Origin: an uncultured Bacteroidales bacterium
Lineage (GTDB): Bacteria > Bacteroidota > Bacteroidia > Bacteroidales > Bacteroidaceae
Direction of reading: 5' to 3'
Assembly (NCBI GenBank): GCA_902774275.1
Contig: CACYHN010000004.1
Coordinates: forward strand, 1 to 63,370
DNA: 63,370 nucleotides
The notes beneath the pieces were generated by a model. It worked only from the letters and a program-made list of their open reading frames with translations, was not told where the DNA came from and made no database searches. Positions 48,961 through 57,400 of this stretch are shown here, piece by piece. Position 1 is the stretch's first letter. Every line of letters begins with the position of its first letter. The position numbers and the translations under genes are program-made.

Positions 48961-49317
48961 ATGAGACAGTTGACCAAGAAAGAAAAAGAGATAATGGAGT
49001 TCTTCTGGGACAGAGGTCCCATGTTCATAAGGGAACTTCAGGGATGTTACGGAAAAGAGCCTAATTTCAGTACGCTCTCCACTCAGGTCCATACGCTTCA
49101 GGTTGACGGTTTCCTGGACCGCGAGGCATTTGGCAGCAACTATCGTTATTTTCCTGTCGTTAGTGCCGATGAATACTGCAACAGCAGCATACACGGCCTC
49201 ATAGACGAGTATCTGGGCAGTTCCTACTCAAATGCTGTAATGGGATTCGTCAAGAACGAGAAACTCTCTGTTGATGACCTGAGACGTATTATTGACAAGA
49301 TAGAGAAAGGACAATGA
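48961..49317 (+). CDS. BlaI/MecI-family transcriptional repressor
   Basis: 118 residues: a winged helix beginning LTKKEKEIMEFFWDRGPMFIRELQGCYG and NFSTLSTQVHTLQVDGFLDREAFGSNYRYFPVVS, then a dimerisation helix region. BlaI-type repressors bind the operon promoter and are inactivated after cleavage triggered by the partner M56 sensor. It overlaps the M56 gene by 4 nt (ATGA). Confidence 0.93.
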   Translation: MRQLTKKEKEIMEFFWDRGPMFIRELQGCYGKEPNFSTLSTQVHTLQVDGFLDREAFGSNYRYFPVVSADEYCNSSIHGLIDEYLGSSYSNAVMGFVKNEKLSVDDLRRIIDKIEKGQ

Positions 49318-52300
49318 ACGCATTCCTTATATATATGCTGAAAGTGGCCATTCTATCGGCTGTTTTCATTGCCCTTTACCACTTGTTGCTCAGTCGGGAA
49401 ACTTTCCACAAGACAAACAGGATCGTACTGGTTTCATCACTGGTATTATCCTATATTCTGCCATTTGTGGTCATAACCGTGCATAGAGAGGGCACTCCCT
49501 CAGAAAGGACTGAAATCACAACAGCAAACAGAGGTAAAGACCCCGTTGCCCAACCCTATCAGCCGGTCATAACCAGCGGGAGCGTCTATTCATCAGTTTC
49601 AGGAGAGGAGGCGGGGCAATCTGTTCAAACTCAAAACCTGACTCAGGTAATAGAGGTTAGCGCAAAACAAGATACGCCAAAGCCTGCGGTTACATCACGC
49701 CTGCCCATTCAGATTGACTGGTGGAAGGTGCTGGCGGGAATATATATGCTTGGATTCCTGGCAGTTCTGGCATATCGGGTTCTATGCACCACCAAGGTAG
49801 TAAGGATTATCCGAAAAGCGGATGTGGTTGAAAAGAACAATGACTTCACGCTCGTACGGACACGACAGTCTGTGCATCCTTTCAGTTGGATGAAATATAT
49901 TGTGATGCCATGGGAGGGTAAAGCTGCCGGGCAGACTCCTATTCTTGACCACGAGAAGGCGCATCTGGCACATCATCACTCACAGGAACTACTCTGGACC
50001 GATATACTGTCCACTCTCCAGTGGTTCAATCCGGCTCTGCTGCTGTTCCGCCGCGACCTTTATTCAATTCATGAATTCCAAGCCGATGCCGACGTTCTCA
50101 ATAAGGGATATGACCGCAGGCAATACCAGTACCTGATGCTGGACTGCGCCACTGAAAAGACGGAACTGAGAGCTGCCAATACATTCAGAAAAAGTACTTT
50201 AGAAGGAAGAATTGATATGATTAACCGTAAAAGATCAACAGGAAAGAGCATCCTGAAGTTTGCCTACATTCCAGTTTTATTACTACTCTCCTTAGGTGCG
50301 TTTGCAGAGACTGTTTATGACAAAGGTCTTGATGAGACCATTGAAGTTGGCAACTATGTCCGTATTGACGGGCTCTGGTATAAGTTTAAGGGTGATGAGG
50401 CCCGTGTGGTAAGCCGCAAGACAGATCATGTCTATCCTGCCGATATTGTCATTCCGGATACCGTTATATATAAGGATGTAAAGTATCCGGTCACATCATT
50501 CAGTGGACCGGCTTTCCAGGATGCTGCCGAGATTGAATCCGTGACAATACCTTTAACCATCAAGGAAATAGAAAGAAGTGCTTTCTGGAGATGTACCGGT
50601 CTTAAAAAGGTTGTGATTCCCACATCGGTAACAACAATTCAGAATGATGCATTCTCTGAATGCACAGGCCTTGAGGAGGTGATAATTCCTAAGACTGTAA
50701 CAACTATAGGCGTCTCTGCCTTTTCAAATTGCTCCGGCTTAAAATCACTTTACATACCTGAATCTGTCAGAAAAATAGGACAAACTGCATTTAACGGATG
50801 CGGCTTTACCAATATTACCGTTGACCCTGCCAACCCTGTTTATGACAGCCGCGAAAACAGCAACGCCATTATAGAGACTGAAACAAACACCATGCTGGTT
50901 GCCAGCAGTTCAACTGTGATTCCTGCCTCAGTCACAGAATTGGATGACTATGTTTTCAGCGGAGTAAAGGGATTGGAACATCTTGAAATTCCTGGGAACG
51001 TCAGGAAAATAGGTTGGCATTGCTTCAGTGAATCTGGAATTAAAAGCATCAGGATAAACAGTAATCTGGTATATTCAATGGAAACATTTAACAACAGTAC
51101 TTCATTGGAGGAAGTTGAATATGGCCCTGATGCTACAGAGATAAAGATTCCTCAGGATTGTCCCAATCTGAAGAGGCTTTTCATTCCGGCAACAGTAACC
51201 AAAATAGATTTCGGAGCCCTGAACAGGCACCCTAATATTGAAACCATTATTGTAGAAGAGGGAAATCCTGTTTATGACAGTAGGGATAACTGTAATGCAA
51301 TAATCCTGTCAGAAACCGATGACCTTGTGTTCGGATGCAAAAACACGGTCATTCCCGGAACGGTAAAGAAGATTTCAAATAATGCATTCCTTAGTTGTAG
51401 TTTTTCTGAATTCTATATTCCTGCATCTGTAGTTGATATATATCCCGTTGAATACGCTCTTCCCGATAAGAACACAACCGGTTCAATAGTTGTTGACCCT
51501 GCAAATCCGGTTTATGACAGCCGTGAGGGTTGCAATGCAATAATAAAGACTGCAACTAACACTTTGCTTTACGGTTGCAGCAATGCTTTCATTCCTAAGT
51601 CAGTGACAGCCATTGACACTTATGCATTCGAGGGAATCCGGAACCTTAAGGAGATATCAATTCCGGATGGTGTGGTAAAGATGGGACACTCTGCTTTCCG
51701 CGACTGCAAGAATCTGGAAAAGGTCCATTTCGGAGCCGGAATAACAGAAATTCAGCCATCCCAGTTCCTTGACAGCCATAAACTCTCTGAAATTACAGTG
51801 AGCCCTGCCAACAGGAAATATGACAGCAGGAACAACTGCAATGCCGTAATAGAAACAGCTACCGGTATTCTGGTTATAGGCGGCAACAAGTCAACTGTAC
51901 CTGATGGGGTGACAACCATAGGACGTGAAGCCTTCCGTTTCCGCGATGAACTGAAATCCCTTACTCTACCGCCGTCAGTCAAGACTATTGAGGATATGGC
52001 TTTTGAAAGTTGTAAGAAATTTGAAAGCATCAATCTTGAATATGTGACCCAGAAAGGCAGATCAGCCTTCAACGCCACGCCCTATGAATCCGGACAGAAG
52101 ATTGATGATTATGACGGATACCTGTCATTCAATCTGAGCGGAAGTGAAGCAGTAATCACAAGTGCATCCCAAAATGCTCCCTCAAAAGTGGTTATACCTG
52201 AAACCATCATGAATGAAGGGAAAGAATACAGTGTTGTAGAGATTGATGAGGAGGCTTTCAACGGCATTACAGGAATAGAATCCTTATCCGTTCCGGGATC

Positions 52301-53855
52301 TGTGAGAAGAATAGGTTCACGTTCCTTCATGGATTGTTCAAACCTGAAAGAGGTAAGCCTCAAAAACGGACTTACCAGTATTGGAGACAAAGCCTTTGCC
52401 AATTGCCGCAAGCTTGAAAAGATCAAACTGCCTTCAACCCTGGAGTCAATTGGACGGTTTGCCTTTACCAGGACAGCCATCAAGACTCTGGCTATTCCCG
52501 CATCAGTCAATGAAATAGGTAATAATATTGCATTGGACTGCAAGAACCTGAAATCCATCTCAGTAGATTCCAGAAACAGTGTTTATGACAGCCGCAGGAA
52601 ATGCAATGCCATAATCCGGACCGATGGCAATATCCTTCTGCAGGGATGCAACAGCACCAGGATTCCAGATGGGATAGAAATCATAGCACCATACGCGTTG
52701 GCGGGAATGCCCGATTTCAAGGCATCGGACATACCGTCATCTGTGCGGCTGATCCTTAAGATGGCATTCTCTTTCTGCACATCCATTGAGAAAATAAACA
52801 TTCCGGCATCAGTTGTCTATCTGGACGGTAATCCATTCTTTGGGTGCAGTTCCGTCAAGAGCATAACGGTTCAGGATGGCAATCCCACCTATTTCAGCCC
52901 GGCAGGAAGCAATGCCGTAATCTCAAATGGCAACAGCGTCAAGGAAAGTATGGATGAGACTGTATTCAGTCTGCGTGAAGGCTATGACTTTGACTTCTTT
53001 GAAACTTATTGGAGATTTAATGTCAGAACGGGAAGACTGGTTCTGGGTTGCCGCAACACTGAAATACCGGAGGCTGCTACATCCATAGGCGCTGATGCGT
53101 TTGCTTACTGCAAGGGATTGGAAAAGATAAGCATTCCTGAAAGAGTTTTCGAAATTGAAGGGAACGCCTTCATTTATTGCGCTGATTTGAAGGAAATTGT
53201 CATTCCTGCATCAGTAAGATTATTGGAAAAATCCAATTACTGTCCTAACCTGGAAAGGATTGTTATAGAAGAAGGAAATGAGGCTTATGACAGCCGTGGT
53301 AACTGCAATGCCATTATCAGTATAGGCAATGATGAACTTATATGGGGATGCAGAAACACCGTTATTCCTGAAACTGTAAAGGGTATAGGCAATGGTGCTT
53401 TCAGTCATGTTCCTGGGCTGAAGACAATCGTCATTCCGGAGTCTGTCACTTATATTGAAGCTGCCGCATTCCAGGATTGCAGAGACCTGGAGGCAATAAA
53501 CATCCCGGCTTCTGTCATCTATCTGGCAGGACAGCATTTTGATTCTCCTGGCTATGAATCCTCAAAGAATCCCTTTGAGAACTGTCCAAAACTTAAGAGC
53601 ATTACAGTTGACAGCGGCAATCTGTATTGGGACAGCCGCAATAACTGCAATGGCATAATAGAGACATCGGCCCGTAAACTGGCAGTTGCCTGCTCAGAGA
53701 CTGTTGTACCTGAAATTGTTAAAGACAGATACTATTCAGCTTACGGGACAACAAAAGAATTCCGTGAAAGGGATTATCTCGATGTGGGTTCCGTATTCTT
53801 TGACGGTTGGATAGTTGAGGATGGCCTTTTTGAGGTTGGGGAATTTGATGATTGA
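49314..53855 (+). CDS. M56 (BlaR1/MecR1-type) metallopeptidase fused to giant BspA-like LRR domain
   Basis: 1513 residues. Residues 1-340 are an M56 membrane peptidase: spans at about 5-22, 35-58, 142-160 and 318-336, with the zinc motif HEKAH at 213-217 and the EFQADADVL helix. From about 340 to the end is a series of LRR_5 (BspA/Treponema type) repeats, I-P-x-x-V-x-x-I-x-x-x-A-F, with at least seven interspersed YDSR..NAI (or WDSR) units and one degenerate one (YFSPAGSNAVI). By topology the LRR part is outside the inner membrane, where BlaR1 has its penicillin-sensing domain. Canonical Bacteroidetes M56 proteins end far earlier. Confidence 0.9.
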   Translation: MNAFLIYMLKVAILSAVFIALYHLLLSRETFHKTNRIVLVSSLVLSYILPFVVITVHREGTPSERTEITTANRGKDPVAQPYQPVITSGSVYSSVSGEEAGQSVQTQNLTQVIEVSAKQDTPKPAVTSRLPIQIDWWKVLAGIYMLGFLAVLAYRVLCTTKVVRIIRKADVVEKNNDFTLVRTRQSVHPFSWMKYIVMPWEGKAAGQTPILDHEKAHLAHHHSQELLWTDILSTLQWFNPALLLFRRDLYSIHEFQADADVLNKGYDRRQYQYLMLDCATEKTELRAANTFRKSTLEGRIDMINRKRSTGKSILKFAYIPVLLLLSLGAFAETVYDKGLDETIEVGNYVRIDGLWYKFKGDEARVVSRKTDHVYPADIVIPDTVIYKDVKYPVTSFSGPAFQDAAEIESVTIPLTIKEIERSAFWRCTGLKKVVIPTSVTTIQNDAFSECTGLEEVIIPKTVTTIGVSAFSNCSGLKSLYIPESVRKIGQTAFNGCGFTNITVDPANPVYDSRENSNAIIETETNTMLVASSSTVIPASVTELDDYVFSGVKGLEHLEIPGNVRKIGWHCFSESGIKSIRINSNLVYSMETFNNSTSLEEVEYGPDATEIKIPQDCPNLKRLFIPATVTKIDFGALNRHPNIETIIVEEGNPVYDSRDNCNAIILSETDDLVFGCKNTVIPGTVKKISNNAFLSCSFSEFYIPASVVDIYPVEYALPDKNTTGSIVVDPANPVYDSREGCNAIIKTATNTLLYGCSNAFIPKSVTAIDTYAFEGIRNLKEISIPDGVVKMGHSAFRDCKNLEKVHFGAGITEIQPSQFLDSHKLSEITVSPANRKYDSRNNCNAVIETATGILVIGGNKSTVPDGVTTIGREAFRFRDELKSLTLPPSVKTIEDMAFESCKKFESINLEYVTQKGRSAFNATPYESGQKIDDYDGYLSFNLSGSEAVITSASQNAPSKVVIPETIMNEGKEYSVVEIDEEAFNGITGIESLSVPGSVRRIGSRSFMDCSNLKEVSLKNGLTSIGDKAFANCRKLEKIKLPSTLESIGRFAFTRTAIKTLAIPASVNEIGNNIALDCKNLKSISVDSRNSVYDSRRKCNAIIRTDGNILLQGCNSTRIPDGIEIIAPYALAGMPDFKASDIPSSVRLILKMAFSFCTSIEKINIPASVVYLDGNPFFGCSSVKSITVQDGNPTYFSPAGSNAVISNGNSVKESMDETVFSLREGYDFDFFETYWRFNVRTGRLVLGCRNTEIPEAATSIGADAFAYCKGLEKISIPERVFEIEGNAFIYCADLKEIVIPASVRLLEKSNYCPNLERIVIEEGNEAYDSRGNCNAIISIGNDELIWGCRNTVIPETVKGIGNGAFSHVPGLKTIVIPESVTYIEAAAFQDCRDLEAINIPASVIYLAGQHFDSPGYESSKNPFENCPKLKSITVDSGNLYWDSRNNCNGIIETSARKLAVACSETVVPEIVKDRYYSAYGTTKEFRERDYLDVGSVFFDGWIVEDGLFEVGEFDD

Positions 53856-53863
53856 ATCACAAG

Positions 53864-53901
53864 ACAGTGCCAAAAAGAAACGTTCTCTTTGGCACTGTTT
53901 T
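53864..53901 (+). terminator. Terminator of the M56-LRR gene
   Basis: ACAGTGCCAAA (53864-53874) pairs with TTTGGCACTGT (53888-53898); GAA/TTC pairs inside, then a TTTTC tail. 9 nt after the stop codon and just upstream of the metK promoter. Confidence 0.75.
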
Positions 53902-53912
53902 CAATTTATTCG

Positions 53913-53920
53913 TATCTTTG
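53913..53920 (+). promoter_or_regulatory. -7 promoter box of metK
   Basis: TATCTTTG followed by CAGCGG matches TAnnTTTG. The predicted transcript start is at about 53924, giving a leader of about 150 nt, unusually long for this window. Confidence 0.65.
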
Positions 53921-53921
53921 C

Positions 53922-54071
53922 AGCGGACAATGTGGAAAGATTTGCGGACCTTATGGTTCCAGACAGCTTGCAACCACACAAAAAAATGCTAAAAGTCACT
54001 CTTTTTTAAGATACTTTGCATAGACGTTGCAGCCCCTTTGTCCGCTTAAGACATTGGGATTTTTTATTTTT
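53922..54071 (+). ncRNA. Structured metK leader, candidate riboswitch
   Basis: By eye: P1 is 9 perfect bp (53922-53930 with 54038-54046). Inside, P2 pairs 53931-53935 with 53974-53978, continues with TTGC/GCAA (53942-53945 with 53970-53973) and ends in a GGACC/GGTTCC hairpin with loop TTAT (53951-53954). P3 pairs 53986-53989 and 53992-53996 with 54013-54021 around a 2-nt bulge. After P1, TGTC (54039-54042) can instead pair with GACA (54050-54053), with flanking CCC/GGG, before a T-rich tract at 54060-54070: a possible alternative terminator hairpin. I recognise no known SAM riboswitch class. Confidence 0.5.
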
Positions 54072-54075
54072 ATAT

Positions 54076-55368
54076 ATGTCATACTTATTCACATCCGAAT
54101 CGGTGTCTGAGGGACACCCTGACAAGGTAGCGGACCAGATATCCGATGCCGTCGTTGACGAACTTCTGGCCTTTGATCCTGATTCAAAGGTTGCATGTGA
54201 AACCCTTGTAACCACCGGACAGGTGGTGCTTGCAGGTGAGGTAAAATCCAAGGCATACGTAGATCTGCAGGATATTGCCCGCCGAGTAATCAACCGTATA
54301 GGCTACACCCGCGCCGAGTACAAGTTTGACGGTGACTCCTGCGGTCTGTTCAGTGCAATTCATGAGCAGAGCGCCGACATTAACCGCGGCGTAGAGCGCG
54401 AGGACCCCGAAAATCAGGGTGCCGGCGACCAAGGCATGATGTTCGGCTACGCCACAAATGAGACCGATGAATACATGCCTGTATCCCTGGCCCTTTCACA
54501 CCGCATTCTGCGCGTTCTGGCCGACATACGCCGTGAAGGCAAGGTAATGACCTACCTGCGTCCCGACTCCAAAAGCCAGGTGACAGTTGAGTACAATGAC
54601 AACGGCAAACCGGTGCGCATAGACACAATTGTTGTATCTACTCAGCATGACGAATTCATCGCACCTGAGAACTCGACCGTTGAGGCCCAGCTTGAGGCTG
54701 ACCGCAAGATGCTCGCTCAGATTGAATCAGACGTTAAGAACATACTTATACCCCGCGTTATCAGCACAATCACATCGGATAAGGTAAAAGCCCTTTTCAA
54801 CGATGGAATCAAGTTTTTTGTGAATCCTACCGGCAAGTTCGTGATTGGAGGACCGCACGGAGACACAGGTCTTACCGGACGCAAGATTATTGTTGATACC
54901 TACGGAGGCAAGGGAGCTCACGGCGGCGGTGCTTTCAGCGGCAAGGATCCCAGCAAGGTGGACCGCTCAGCAGCCTACGCAACACGTCATATTGCCAAGA
55001 ACCTGGTTGCAGCAGGTGTAGCTGATGAGGTTCTAGTTCAGGTTTCATACGCCATAGGTGTGGCTAAGCCCATCAATATATTTGTAAACACCTACGGCAC
55101 AAGTCACGTTAAGCAGTCGGACGATAAGATTGCCAACATAGTAGGCAGCCTGTTTGATATGCGCCCCAAGGCCATTGAGAACCGCCTGAAACTGCGTAAC
55201 CCCATCTACAGCGAGACCGCAGCCTACGGTCACATGGGCCGCGAGCCGCAAACCGTTACCAAGGTCTTCAAGTCACATTATCTTCCCGCCAAAACAGTAG
55301 AGGTGGAACTTTTCACTTGGGAGAAGCTGGATTACGTGGACAAGATCAAGAAGGCATTTGATCTCTAA
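54076..55368 (+). CDS. metK: S-adenosylmethionine synthetase
   Basis: 430 residues from the ATG at 54076 ([26 protein letters not shown]); in-frame codons further upstream fall in the leader and are not conserved. Motifs: GHPDKV with the catalytic His, [16 protein letters not shown], and the second signature [22 protein letters not shown]. It makes SAM from methionine and ATP. The next gene begins within its stop codon (TAATG), so SAM synthetase and the following cytidylyltransferase fusion are translationally coupled. Confidence 0.97.
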
Positions 55369-56708
55369 TGAAACGTGTAATAACATACGGAACATTTGAC
55401 CTTTTGCATCAGGGTCACATTAACTTACTAAGGCGTGCTAAGGAACTTGGCGACTATCTTATAGTAGGAGTAACCAGTGACAGCTTCGATGTGGGGCGAG
55501 GAAAAATGAATGTCAGGAACAACGTCCTGGAGCGTATTGAAGCGGTCAAGGCTACAGGCTATGCAGATGAAGTAATCATAGAGGATTATCTTGGGCAGAA
55601 AATAGATGACATTCAGAAATATGATGTGGATATCTTTGCCATAGGCAGCGACTGGGAAGGAAAATTTGACTATCTGAAAGAGTATTGCCAGGTGGTATAT
55701 CTGCCTCGCACTGAAGGAATCTCTTCAACTATGCTTAGAGAAGAGAGCCAGAATAACTATCGGATAGGAATAATAGGTAGCGGACGTATAGCAAATCGTT
55801 TTGTACCTGAAGCAAAAATGGTGAACGGAACACAAATTACGTCTGTTCTGAATCCAGACCCGCTACAAGCAGAATCATTTGCTAAAGCACATGACATTGA
55901 ATATTACACAGATTTTGACGATTTCATTAAAACGGTAGATACCGTTTATATTGCAACACCCCACCTCACTCACTATGATTATGCCAAGCGTAGCTTATTG
56001 GCAGGCAAACATGTGCTTTGTGAGATACCTTTCACTCTTAAAAAAAATGAGGCTCTGGAATTATACAGTCTGGCTGAAAAACAGAATCTCGTTCTGCTGG
56101 AAGCCAGTAAAACTGCATATTGTCCGGCTTTTGGCCATATTATCACATTAGTAAAAAGCGGCATTATAGGAGATGTAGTTGATGTAAAGGCTTCCCTCAG
56201 TAAAATGGTTGCGCCACCGATACGCGAGTTGGATGCATCACAAGCTGGAGGAGCTATGACAGAACACGCTCCACTTACAGTGATGGCTATTGTTAAACTT
56301 CTTGGCACCAATTGGCATGATATGAATTTCCATAGTCGCATGGAGAACGGAGTGGATGTTTACACTCAAGGCGTAATCAATTACCCTCATGCCACATCAA
56401 GTTTTACATTGGGAATTGGTGTCAAGACTGAAGGAAACCTGGTAATAAGCGGCACCAAAGGTTATATTTATGTACCTGCTCCATGGTGGCTCACCGACTT
56501 CTTTGAGGTTCGTTATGAAGACCAGACCAAGAACAGGAAATACTTCTATAGCTATGACGGTGAAGGCTTAAGGTATGAAATTCAGGAATTTCTTTCCATG
56601 ATAGTGAACAACCGGCGTTACTGTTATAAACTCCGCCATCACGAAAGTGTAGCCATTGCTGAGATTATTGAAAAATACCGTAACAAAGAAAATGTGACAG
56701 TAATATGA
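55368..56708 (+). CDS. TagD-like cytidylyltransferase fused to Gfo/Idh/MocA oxidoreductase
   Basis: 446 residues. Residues 1-130: glycerol-3-phosphate cytidylyltransferase-type domain with the HxGH motif (TFDLLHQGHINLLRRAKELGD) and the RTEGISSTMLRE motif (family RTxGISTT). Residues about 135-446: Gfo/Idh/MocA oxidoreductase with NAD loop RIGIIGSGRIANRF, the CEIPFTLKKNEA helix (EKP-type motif) and a C-terminal beta domain. The layout suggests making a CDP-activated polyol or sugar acid and an oxidoreduction on the same building block. The true substrate is unknown. Confidence 0.85.
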   Translation: MKRVITYGTFDLLHQGHINLLRRAKELGDYLIVGVTSDSFDVGRGKMNVRNNVLERIEAVKATGYADEVIIEDYLGQKIDDIQKYDVDIFAIGSDWEGKFDYLKEYCQVVYLPRTEGISSTMLREESQNNYRIGIIGSGRIANRFVPEAKMVNGTQITSVLNPDPLQAESFAKAHDIEYYTDFDDFIKTVDTVYIATPHLTHYDYAKRSLLAGKHVLCEIPFTLKKNEALELYSLAEKQNLVLLEASKTAYCPAFGHIITLVKSGIIGDVVDVKASLSKMVAPPIRELDASQAGGAMTEHAPLTVMAIVKLLGTNWHDMNFHSRMENGVDVYTQGVINYPHATSSFTLGIGVKTEGNLVISGTKGYIYVPAPWWLTDFFEVRYEDQTKNRKYFYSYDGEGLRYEIQEFLSMIVNNRRYCYKLRHHESVAIAEIIEKYRNKENVTVI

Positions 56709-57400
56709 AATATGCAGTTGTAACCGGCGGAACATCCGGCATAGGGCTTGGAGTGGCAAAAAAACTGATAGAAAAAGGCTATTATGTATTTGCAACATAT
56801 GTGGGGCCTCTTTTTACTGAGAATATTGAAAACTTTGAACCCCACATCGTTGACCAAACCAAACGTGATGAAGTCTATTCTTTCATAAACTATGTAAAAT
56901 CCAAGACTAATCACATAGACTGCCTGATATGCAACGCTGGTGTAAACATACGCAAAAGCTTTACAGAGATGAAAGACAGCGAGTGGGATGCCATGATGGA
57001 GGTGGCTGTCAACTCACATTACATCATGGTCCGCGAGTTCTTTAAATTATTTCCTGCCGGTTCCAGGATAATATTTACAGGTTCTCAGATGGGCTTACAC
57101 CCACACGCTACAGTATTGGCCTATGGTGTTACGAAGTCTGCCGTACATGCATTGGTCAAAAACCTTGTAAAAGAATTTGAGGGCACCGGTACCACTGTAA
57201 ATGCTGTTGTCCCAGGTTTTGTAGATACACCCTGGCAGAAATCCAAACCTGAAGAGATAAAGCAAAACATCTATAACAAGACAGCTATCCACCGTTTTGC
57301 CGGTATTGATGAAATTGTTGATGCCTTCAACTTCTGTATTGACAATCCTTTTGTCAACGGAAGCCTGATTGAAGTCAACGGCGGTTACTGCTTTAAGTGA
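56705..57400 (+). CDS. Short-chain dehydrogenase/reductase
   Basis: 231 residues, overlapping the fusion gene by 4 nt (ATGA). Classical SDR with TGGTSGIGLGVAKKL, ICNAGVN, the Ser of FTGSQMG and YGVTKSAVHALV (YxxxK). PGFVDTPWQKSKPEE and NGSLIEVNGGYCF complete the fold. Its position after the CDP-type fusion is reminiscent of CDP-ribitol genes, where cytidylyltransferase and reductase go together, but the domain families differ. Confidence 0.88.
   Translation: MKYAVVTGGTSGIGLGVAKKLIEKGYYVFATYVGPLFTENIENFEPHIVDQTKRDEVYSFINYVKSKTNHIDCLICNAGVNIRKSFTEMKDSEWDAMMEVAVNSHYIMVREFFKLFPAGSRIIFTGSQMGLHPHATVLAYGVTKSAVHALVKNLVKEFEGTGTTVNAVVPGFVDTPWQKSKPEEIKQNIYNKTAIHRFAGIDEIVDAFNFCIDNPFVNGSLIEVNGGYCFK

Follow-up and report, generated by a model that had tools for sequence, protein, structure and literature searches.

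The metK leader in the window, the 63,370-nt stretch of Bacteroidales DNA analysed here, belongs near certainly to the SAM-II class of riboswitches, and its ligand would be SAM. We propose, with a probability of roughly 0.78, that this leader is an OFF switch working by transcription attenuation, with the 5' end of the transcript acting as the antiterminator. The class itself is already known, because SAM-II has been in print for the Bacteroides group since 2005 and for the 'long loops' of Bacteroidetes since 2010. The metK leader is therefore no novel riboswitch class, and what is new likely lies in a lineage-specific expression platform built on a known aptamer.

A scan of the window against Rfam 15 gave a sole match at gathering thresholds, SAM-II (RF01726), at 53926–54002 on the forward strand (49.7 bits versus a gathering score of 44, E = 1.6e-6). 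In a 401-nt search the same match reached an E value of 1e-8, with model positions 1–60 of 60 aligned. A cmscan of 53800–54200 at E ≤ 1 returned no other riboswitch family; apart from SAM-II it reported nothing more than a sub-threshold sRNA on the opposite strand (BTnc005, 14.8 bits versus a gathering score of 174.8), which we rejected as a chance match. The placement is also that of a SAM-II element, with a methionine/SAM gene downstream and a promoter box just before stem P1. The genome of the window (78% complete) contained a single SAM-II match. An earlier note on this DNA had described a leader of the riboswitch type upstream of metK, with which the RF01726 match above the gathering score agrees. 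However, it had recognised no layout of a known SAM class and had favoured an unknown class, a reading it would have given up for an Rfam match to a known class; RF01726 is such a match, and the new class was thereby ruled out. The SAM-II aptamer itself was missed because the fold drawn in that note is the other, ligand-free state.

The core residues of SAM-II were all matched in the window, namely UGUGG...CCACA (P1), GGAAAGAUUUG, UUGCAACC and AAAAAAAUGCUAAA. From the model alignment, the 5' strand of P1 (UGUGG) lies at 53931–53935 and its 3' strand (CCACA) at 53974–53978. The pseudoknot P2 would be formed by GAC at 53962–53964 and the complementary GUC at 53995–53997, which follows the conserved GCUAAAA and was placed from the model alignment and the aligned rows. 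For comparison, we collected 29 leaders from the genus of the window, of which 28 reach the metK start and were tested. The same core (GGA-AGAUUUG, UUGCAACC, GCUAAA) was parsed in 28/28 of these and is nearly invariant within the genus. In the alignment of 25 leaders described below, neither P1 nor P2 showed a two-sided change, because both stems hardly vary; P2 was complementary (GAC/GUC) in 25/25 rows, but being invariant it is uninformative for covariation.

The P1 loop carries a lineage-specific hairpin insert, GGACC-UUAU-GGUUCC (53945–53961), which sits between AUUUG and the 5' strand of P2 and was delimited from the inserts of relatives and the minimum free energy (MFE) fold. This is the inner hairpin pointed out previously, located at 53946–53960 and present in the MFE fold. 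The 28 genus leaders had 20 distinct insert sequences of 14–29 nt, every one of which had a hairpin as its MFE fold, and 11/20 of these hairpins beat 95% of mononucleotide shuffles.

The leader as a whole is structured, as had been claimed: the MFE of 53922–54076 was −36.9 kcal/mol versus a shuffled mean of −28.9 (z = −2.36), with 1/200 shuffles as good. The 9-bp outer helix of the earlier note is present in this fold, 53922–53930 (AGCGGACAA) being the perfect complement of 54038–54046 (TTGTCCGCT). The second arm exists too, but as 3 + 5 pairs with a bulge (53966–53974 with 54026–54033) and not as nine continuous pairs. The perfect helix ends at 53930 and leaves P1 of the aptamer untouched. 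In the MFE fold, however, G53932 and GG53934–35 extend it by pairing with CCC at 54034–54036, and GUUGCAGC at 54026–54033 occupies the aptamer's GCU-GCAAC at 53966–53974. The full fold thus dismantles P1, with which it shares G53932, GG53934–35 and C53974. We therefore designate 53922–53935 (core GGACAAUGUGG, 53925–53935) as the 5' strand of an antiterminator, its last five bases being the 5' strand of P1, and 54026–54033 as the inner antiterminator strand. A sequence UUGCAGC similar to the latter was seen by eye in many, not all, relatives. The closed fold once taken for the aptamer is best read as the ligand-free antiterminator, and the 'P1' named there differs from P1 of the aptamer.

The 3' strand of the antiterminator is a switching strand (CCCCUUUGUCCGCU, 54033–54046), of which 54034–54042 is also the 5' arm of an intrinsic-terminator-like element at 54034–54071 (CCC-UU-UGUC/GACA-UU-GGG, U-rich tail 54060–54071), found by a scan for hairpins with U tracts. 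Here the earlier description was accurate: GACA at 54050–54053 lies within a hairpin flanked by CCC (54034–54036) and GGG (54056–54058), and this GC-containing hairpin (54034–54058) is directly followed by U6-A-U5, as in an intrinsic terminator. CCCCUUUGUCC thus has two alternative partners, the 5' end GGACAAUGUGG or GACAUUGGG, which precedes U6-A-U5. The two alternative states suspected before are borne out, since both use 54034–54042 and both are conserved. The hairpin of the window ends 17 nt before the metK AUG and is weak (−8 to −10 kcal/mol); a simple consensus terminator scanner did not list it, presumably owing to its internal mismatches.

Both pairings recurred throughout the genus. 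In 28/28 leaders, the first 14 nt formed their best duplex with the terminator 5' arm. In the window this complementarity was matched by 0/500 dinucleotide shuffles of the downstream part, while in some leaders it was weak, with 116/500 (L023) and 162/500 (L045) shuffles as good. At the decision point, defined as the RNA ending just after the terminator 5' arm, the unconstrained MFE fold held the antiterminator in 28/28 leaders with a probability of 0.98 or more. The extension of the outer helix was more variable, position f1 being paired in 4/28 and f3 in 9/28.

Pairing was assessed in an alignment of 25 of the 28 leaders, omitting L039, L040 and L041 as near copies of L038 and L037. For the antiterminator, 94.4% of cells were paired, compared with 36–56% when one strand was slid, and two pairs showed two-sided changes, which came from one lineage. 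For the terminator, 88.0% of cells were paired (36–46% when slid) and three pairs showed two-sided changes. The number of two-sided pairs was reached by 18/500 column shuffles for each helix, while the number of further pair types did not exceed that of column shuffles (492/500 as high for the antiterminator and 376/500 for the terminator). In L018 and L019, C→U in column 146 is accompanied by G→A in both of its alternative partners, columns 5 and 159; this three-strand change in the aligned sequences preserves both pairings and, coming from one lineage, counts as one event. An RNAalifold consensus, which can display neither a pseudoknot nor alternative pairings, recovered P1, loop pairs and part of the terminator. 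Left out of these comparisons were L035, a genus leader with no metK start found downstream, L046, a sub-threshold second match in genome G038, and six leaders that did not match the core pattern (L106, L110, L117, L123, L146 and L153); L009, whose leader is too long, was omitted from the complementarity tests across leaders.

The position of the 5' end matters for this scheme. A Bacteroidetes-type −7 box (TATCTTTG; consensus TAnnTTTG as given in PMC7366714) lies at 53913–53920 and is present across the genus leaders. A TAnnTT(T/C)G box occurred 10–14 nt upstream of the P1 GTGG in 29/29 of them, at 11 nt in 25/29; outside the genus, 47/53 leaders had it upstream as well, with a less uniform spacing. 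The transcript is hence expected to start at about 53923–53925, so the 5' strand of the antiterminator would be its very beginning. The outer helix may thus be without its outermost pairs (53922–53924) in the transcript, since transcription is predicted to begin at or within its 5' strand. With the first 3 nt removed, the core antiterminator (GGACAA) still formed at the decision point in 28/28 leaders, but in 24/28 if the start is 53926 (4 nt off) and in 13/28 if it is 53928 (6 nt). Because its survival drops with removal from the 5' end, the start site is a real condition of the model.

The proposed mechanism is as follows. When SAM is scarce, the nascent 5' end GGACAAUGUGG, including the 5' strand of P1, would pair with CCCCUUUGUCC once the latter is made, and GUUGCAGC would hold the aptamer's GCU-GCAAC; this antiterminator would delay or prevent the terminator, and metK would be transcribed. 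When SAM is plentiful, it would stabilise P1 and the P2 pseudoknot, and the antiterminator would lose the pairs overlapping P1 together with its inner arm. We infer that the terminator 3' arm GACAUUGGG would then displace the remaining antiterminator, and that transcription would end directly before the metK start codon.

The coupling of the aptamer to the terminator is the weak step of this model, as seen from constrained folding, which ignores the shape of the pseudoknot and the ligand. When P1 was imposed and the first ten bases were barred from pairing, which excludes the antiterminator by construction, the full leader folded a terminator of 6–11 pairs in 28/28 cases. An occupied aptamer was then imitated by imposing P1 and barring the aptamer core from any other pairing; when the 5' end was left free, the MFE fold of the full leader was the terminator in 23/28; the antiterminator was kept in the window, L034, L038, L039 and L041 (RNA from 53922). 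An RNA 3 nt shorter gave the terminator in 27/28, and in the window, starting at 53925, the terminator won by −22.3 versus −21.2 kcal/mol. Without any constraint, the full-length MFE fold was the terminator in 20/28 and the antiterminator in 7/28 (window included), compared with 25/28 and 2/28 for the RNA 3 nt shorter. At the decision point, occupancy of the aptamer excluded just the pairs overlapping P1 and the inner arm, and the antiterminator core GACAA:UUGUC persisted in the MFE fold in 27/28. Since most unconstrained full-length leaders already favour the terminator, switching would have to depend on kinetics, and control by SAM would in general be kinetic or steric. In these models the pairings would allow a switch, while its direction and its dependence on SAM would rest on kinetics, on pseudoknot shape, and on the loss of the inner arm and of the pairs that overlap P1.

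The same folds would also suit a constitutive attenuator, in which a SAM-II aptamer is followed by a terminator that sets the metK level independently of SAM, or in which SAM acts at a later step. The terminator preference of unconstrained full-length leaders and the survival of the antiterminator core beside an occupied aptamer both fit it, as does the S. meliloti metA SAM-II, which according to PMC9373788 precedes a terminator for which no riboswitch dependence is predicted. We nevertheless consider this explanation unlikely, because a constitutive terminator needs no match between its arm and the 5' end, which was found in every leader tested; moreover, the genus leaders hardly vary in their GACAA core, where by eye the sampled family members mostly have variable, A-rich sequence, and all three strands changed together in one lineage. 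It is improbable as well that the downstream hairpin acts on translation by occluding ribosome loading. Its distance of 14–23 nt from the start codon in 28/28 genus leaders would suit such a role, the metX SAM-II is described as RBS-occluding (PMC10907184), and the AU-rich sequence before the start codon also occurs in relatives without the hairpin. However, the 12 nt past the hairpin contain 7–11 U in 28/28 leaders, and the median at −18 to −7 is 9/12 U in the genus versus 5 in the family and 4 in other families; because a terminator needs U, this richness counts for termination. Some additional occlusion of ribosome loading may occur beside termination.

Hardly credible is a new SAM- or methionine-responsive class in which the 9-bp outer helix is the closing stem of the aptamer. 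That helix is real and stable, and in terms of secondary structure it can coexist with P1 of SAM-II. Yet the SAM-II match spans the full 60-position model, the SAM-II core is nearly invariant while the extension of the outer helix varies, and the 3' strand of this helix is shared with the terminator arm. The attenuation switch with a 5'-end antiterminator thus remains our preferred reading, and a testable mechanism takes the place of the candidate new class, with the switching strand, both of its partners and a natural three-strand compensatory change now defined.

To place the genus among its relatives, we compared SAM-II leaders across the Bacteroidales. Matches at E ≤ 0.001 were found in 29/37 genus genomes, 124/151 genomes sampled in the family and 266/393 sampled in the order. 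The order and family loci compared were the best-scoring matches and not a random draw (16, plus 30 requested from each of the order and family searches). Within the family sample, SAM-II matches spanned 58–62 nt in 118/118 places outside the genus versus 76–78 nt in 6 genus places. A terminator (hairpin of −8 kcal/mol or stronger with a U tract) was present in 28/28 genus leaders versus 3/28 from other genera of the family and 2/41 from other families, a total of 5/69 outside the genus. By sequence, the genus leaders are set apart from the sampled relatives by the aptamer hairpin and the terminator, as well as by the nearly invariant GACAA ahead of P1.

Complementarity was also tested across 96 leaders. 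A complement to a leader's own 5' end and P1, reached by at most 10/200 shuffles, was found in 19/28 genus leaders, 3/28 from the rest of the family and 3/40 from other families; for a complement to the leader's own L1/P2 segment, these numbers were 6/28, 8/28 and 17/40. When matched and mismatched leaders were compared outside the genus, the 5' end gave no signal (63 leaders, p = 0.16), but the P2 segment did (18 distinct segments, p = 0.0005). Just 2/18 own partners beat every mismatched partner, so anti-P2 pairing is a tendency rather than a rule. The genus 5' ends also paired well with some leaders outside the genus (0 to 24 of 68 as good). Complementarity alone is therefore unspecific, and more weight falls on the fact that it coincides with the terminator arm.

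An example of anti-P2 pairing outside the genus is GAGUAG with CUACUC. In ten leaders of other Bacteroidaceae (L125, L128–L134, L143 and L148), CUACUC lies downstream of the aptamer and complements GAGUAG of the P2 5' strand; several of these leaders have UCCGUACACGGA next, a small hairpin without a U tract. Two family leaders, L145 and L151, had a very strong downstream complement to the 5' end and P1 (−16.4 and −14.2 kcal/mol, 1/200 shuffles each) and are perhaps independent 5'-end switches. Taken together, the leader sequences suggest that more than one SAM-II platform exists within the Bacteroidales.

A pattern scan of named genomes found 27 stretches, all titled Bacteroidales, Bacteroidaceae or Prevotellaceae except one, 'Candidatus Colenecus caballi' (L083), a taxon assigned to the Bacteroidaceae by NCBI. 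The hosts, where titled, were reindeer, red deer, yak, water buffalo, sheep and horse. Our tentative reading, close to an even call, is that a Bacteroidaceae genus of herbivore guts has rebuilt its SAM-II switch into a three-strand device, which combines a terminator with an extra hairpin in the aptamer and uses the first ~11 nt of the transcript both as antiterminator and as P1 strand, while elsewhere in the Bacteroidales there is an anti-P2 tendency and the terminator is rare. If this is true, one and the same aptamer would be open to swaps of its expression platform within a single bacterial family, and SAM-II could switch through P1 instead of P2.

The aptamer resembles known SAM-II systems closely. 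It shares P1, GGAAAGAUUUG, UUGCAACC, the A-rich linker and GCUAAA with RF01726, which includes the 'SAM-II long loops' of PMC2864571 (Weinberg et al. 2010), where Bacteroidetes are among the taxa named. It differs in the 17-nt hairpin insert between AUUUG and the P2 5' strand (14–29 nt in the genus), where the RF01726 alignment has 3 loop positions. The SAM-II elements of alphaproteobacteria and the Bacteroides group described in PMC1273637 (Corbino et al. 2005) have the same aptamer and a possible transcript start a few nt before P1, and many are said there to precede putative intrinsic terminators; in the genus of the window, the transcript 5' end and the P1 5' strand would serve as the antiterminator. 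According to a statement in PMC2258182, SAM-II in alpha- and betaproteobacteria is mostly associated with predicted terminators, and as of 2007 its mechanism had yet to be established by experiment. For the S. meliloti metZ SAM-II, SAM binding is predicted in PMC9373788 to trigger Rho-independent termination, and the RNA levels reported there agree. This is the direction proposed for the window, although metZ SAM-II is alphaproteobacterial and controls metZ, not metK. The metX SAM-II (2QWY; PMC10907184) belongs to the same H-type pseudoknot class, but is described as an RBS-blocking switch whose P1 is protected whether or not SAM is present, whereas our proposal for the window gives the P1 5' strand a part in switching. 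A SAM-II platform with a 5'-end antiterminator was not described in the titles and abstract openings of the literature searched, which mostly excluded subscription journals.

The gene behind the leader, metK, encodes an S-adenosylmethionine synthetase of 430 aa (54076–55368 on the forward strand, stop codon included; Pfam S-AdoMet_synt N, M and C), and a metK start followed in 28/29 genus leaders. In L035, from genome G005, an apparent internal metK coding sequence follows the aptamer within ~10 nt, and both the metK start and the remainder of the leader are missing, reflecting either an assembly join or a deletion. Eight of the 37 genus genomes had no SAM-II match, and six of those eight carry a leaderless metK, which gave no Rfam match at E up to 5 and makes these sister genomes natural controls. 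In G016 (L062), whose MetK is 91% identical to that of the window, the leader is missing and the distance from the end of the promoter box to the start codon is 7 nt, compared with 24 nt in G024. For G030, G032, G001 and G027, no promoter box was found within 300 nt of metK, and one frame was open for 73–95 codons in the 300 nt upstream, as if metK follows another gene there. In the other two genomes (G004 and G019), both incomplete, no MetK match was found.

Around the leader, a strong hairpin at 53862–53899 (ACAGTGCCAAA...TTTGGCACTGT), right after the upstream gene and followed by TTTT, is possibly a terminator that separates metK from this gene. The upstream gene (49314–53855) encodes a 1513-aa protein that combines a BlaR1-type M56 peptidase domain with BspA-type LRR_5 repeats (8 stretches), a pairing that seemed unusual to us. 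In the downstream stretch 55368–57400, a gene with cytidylyltransferase-like and GFO/IDH/MocA oxidoreductase domains overlaps the metK stop codon with its start (TAATG), so the riboswitch may control more than metK. This gene is in turn followed by an overlapping gene for a short-chain dehydrogenase.
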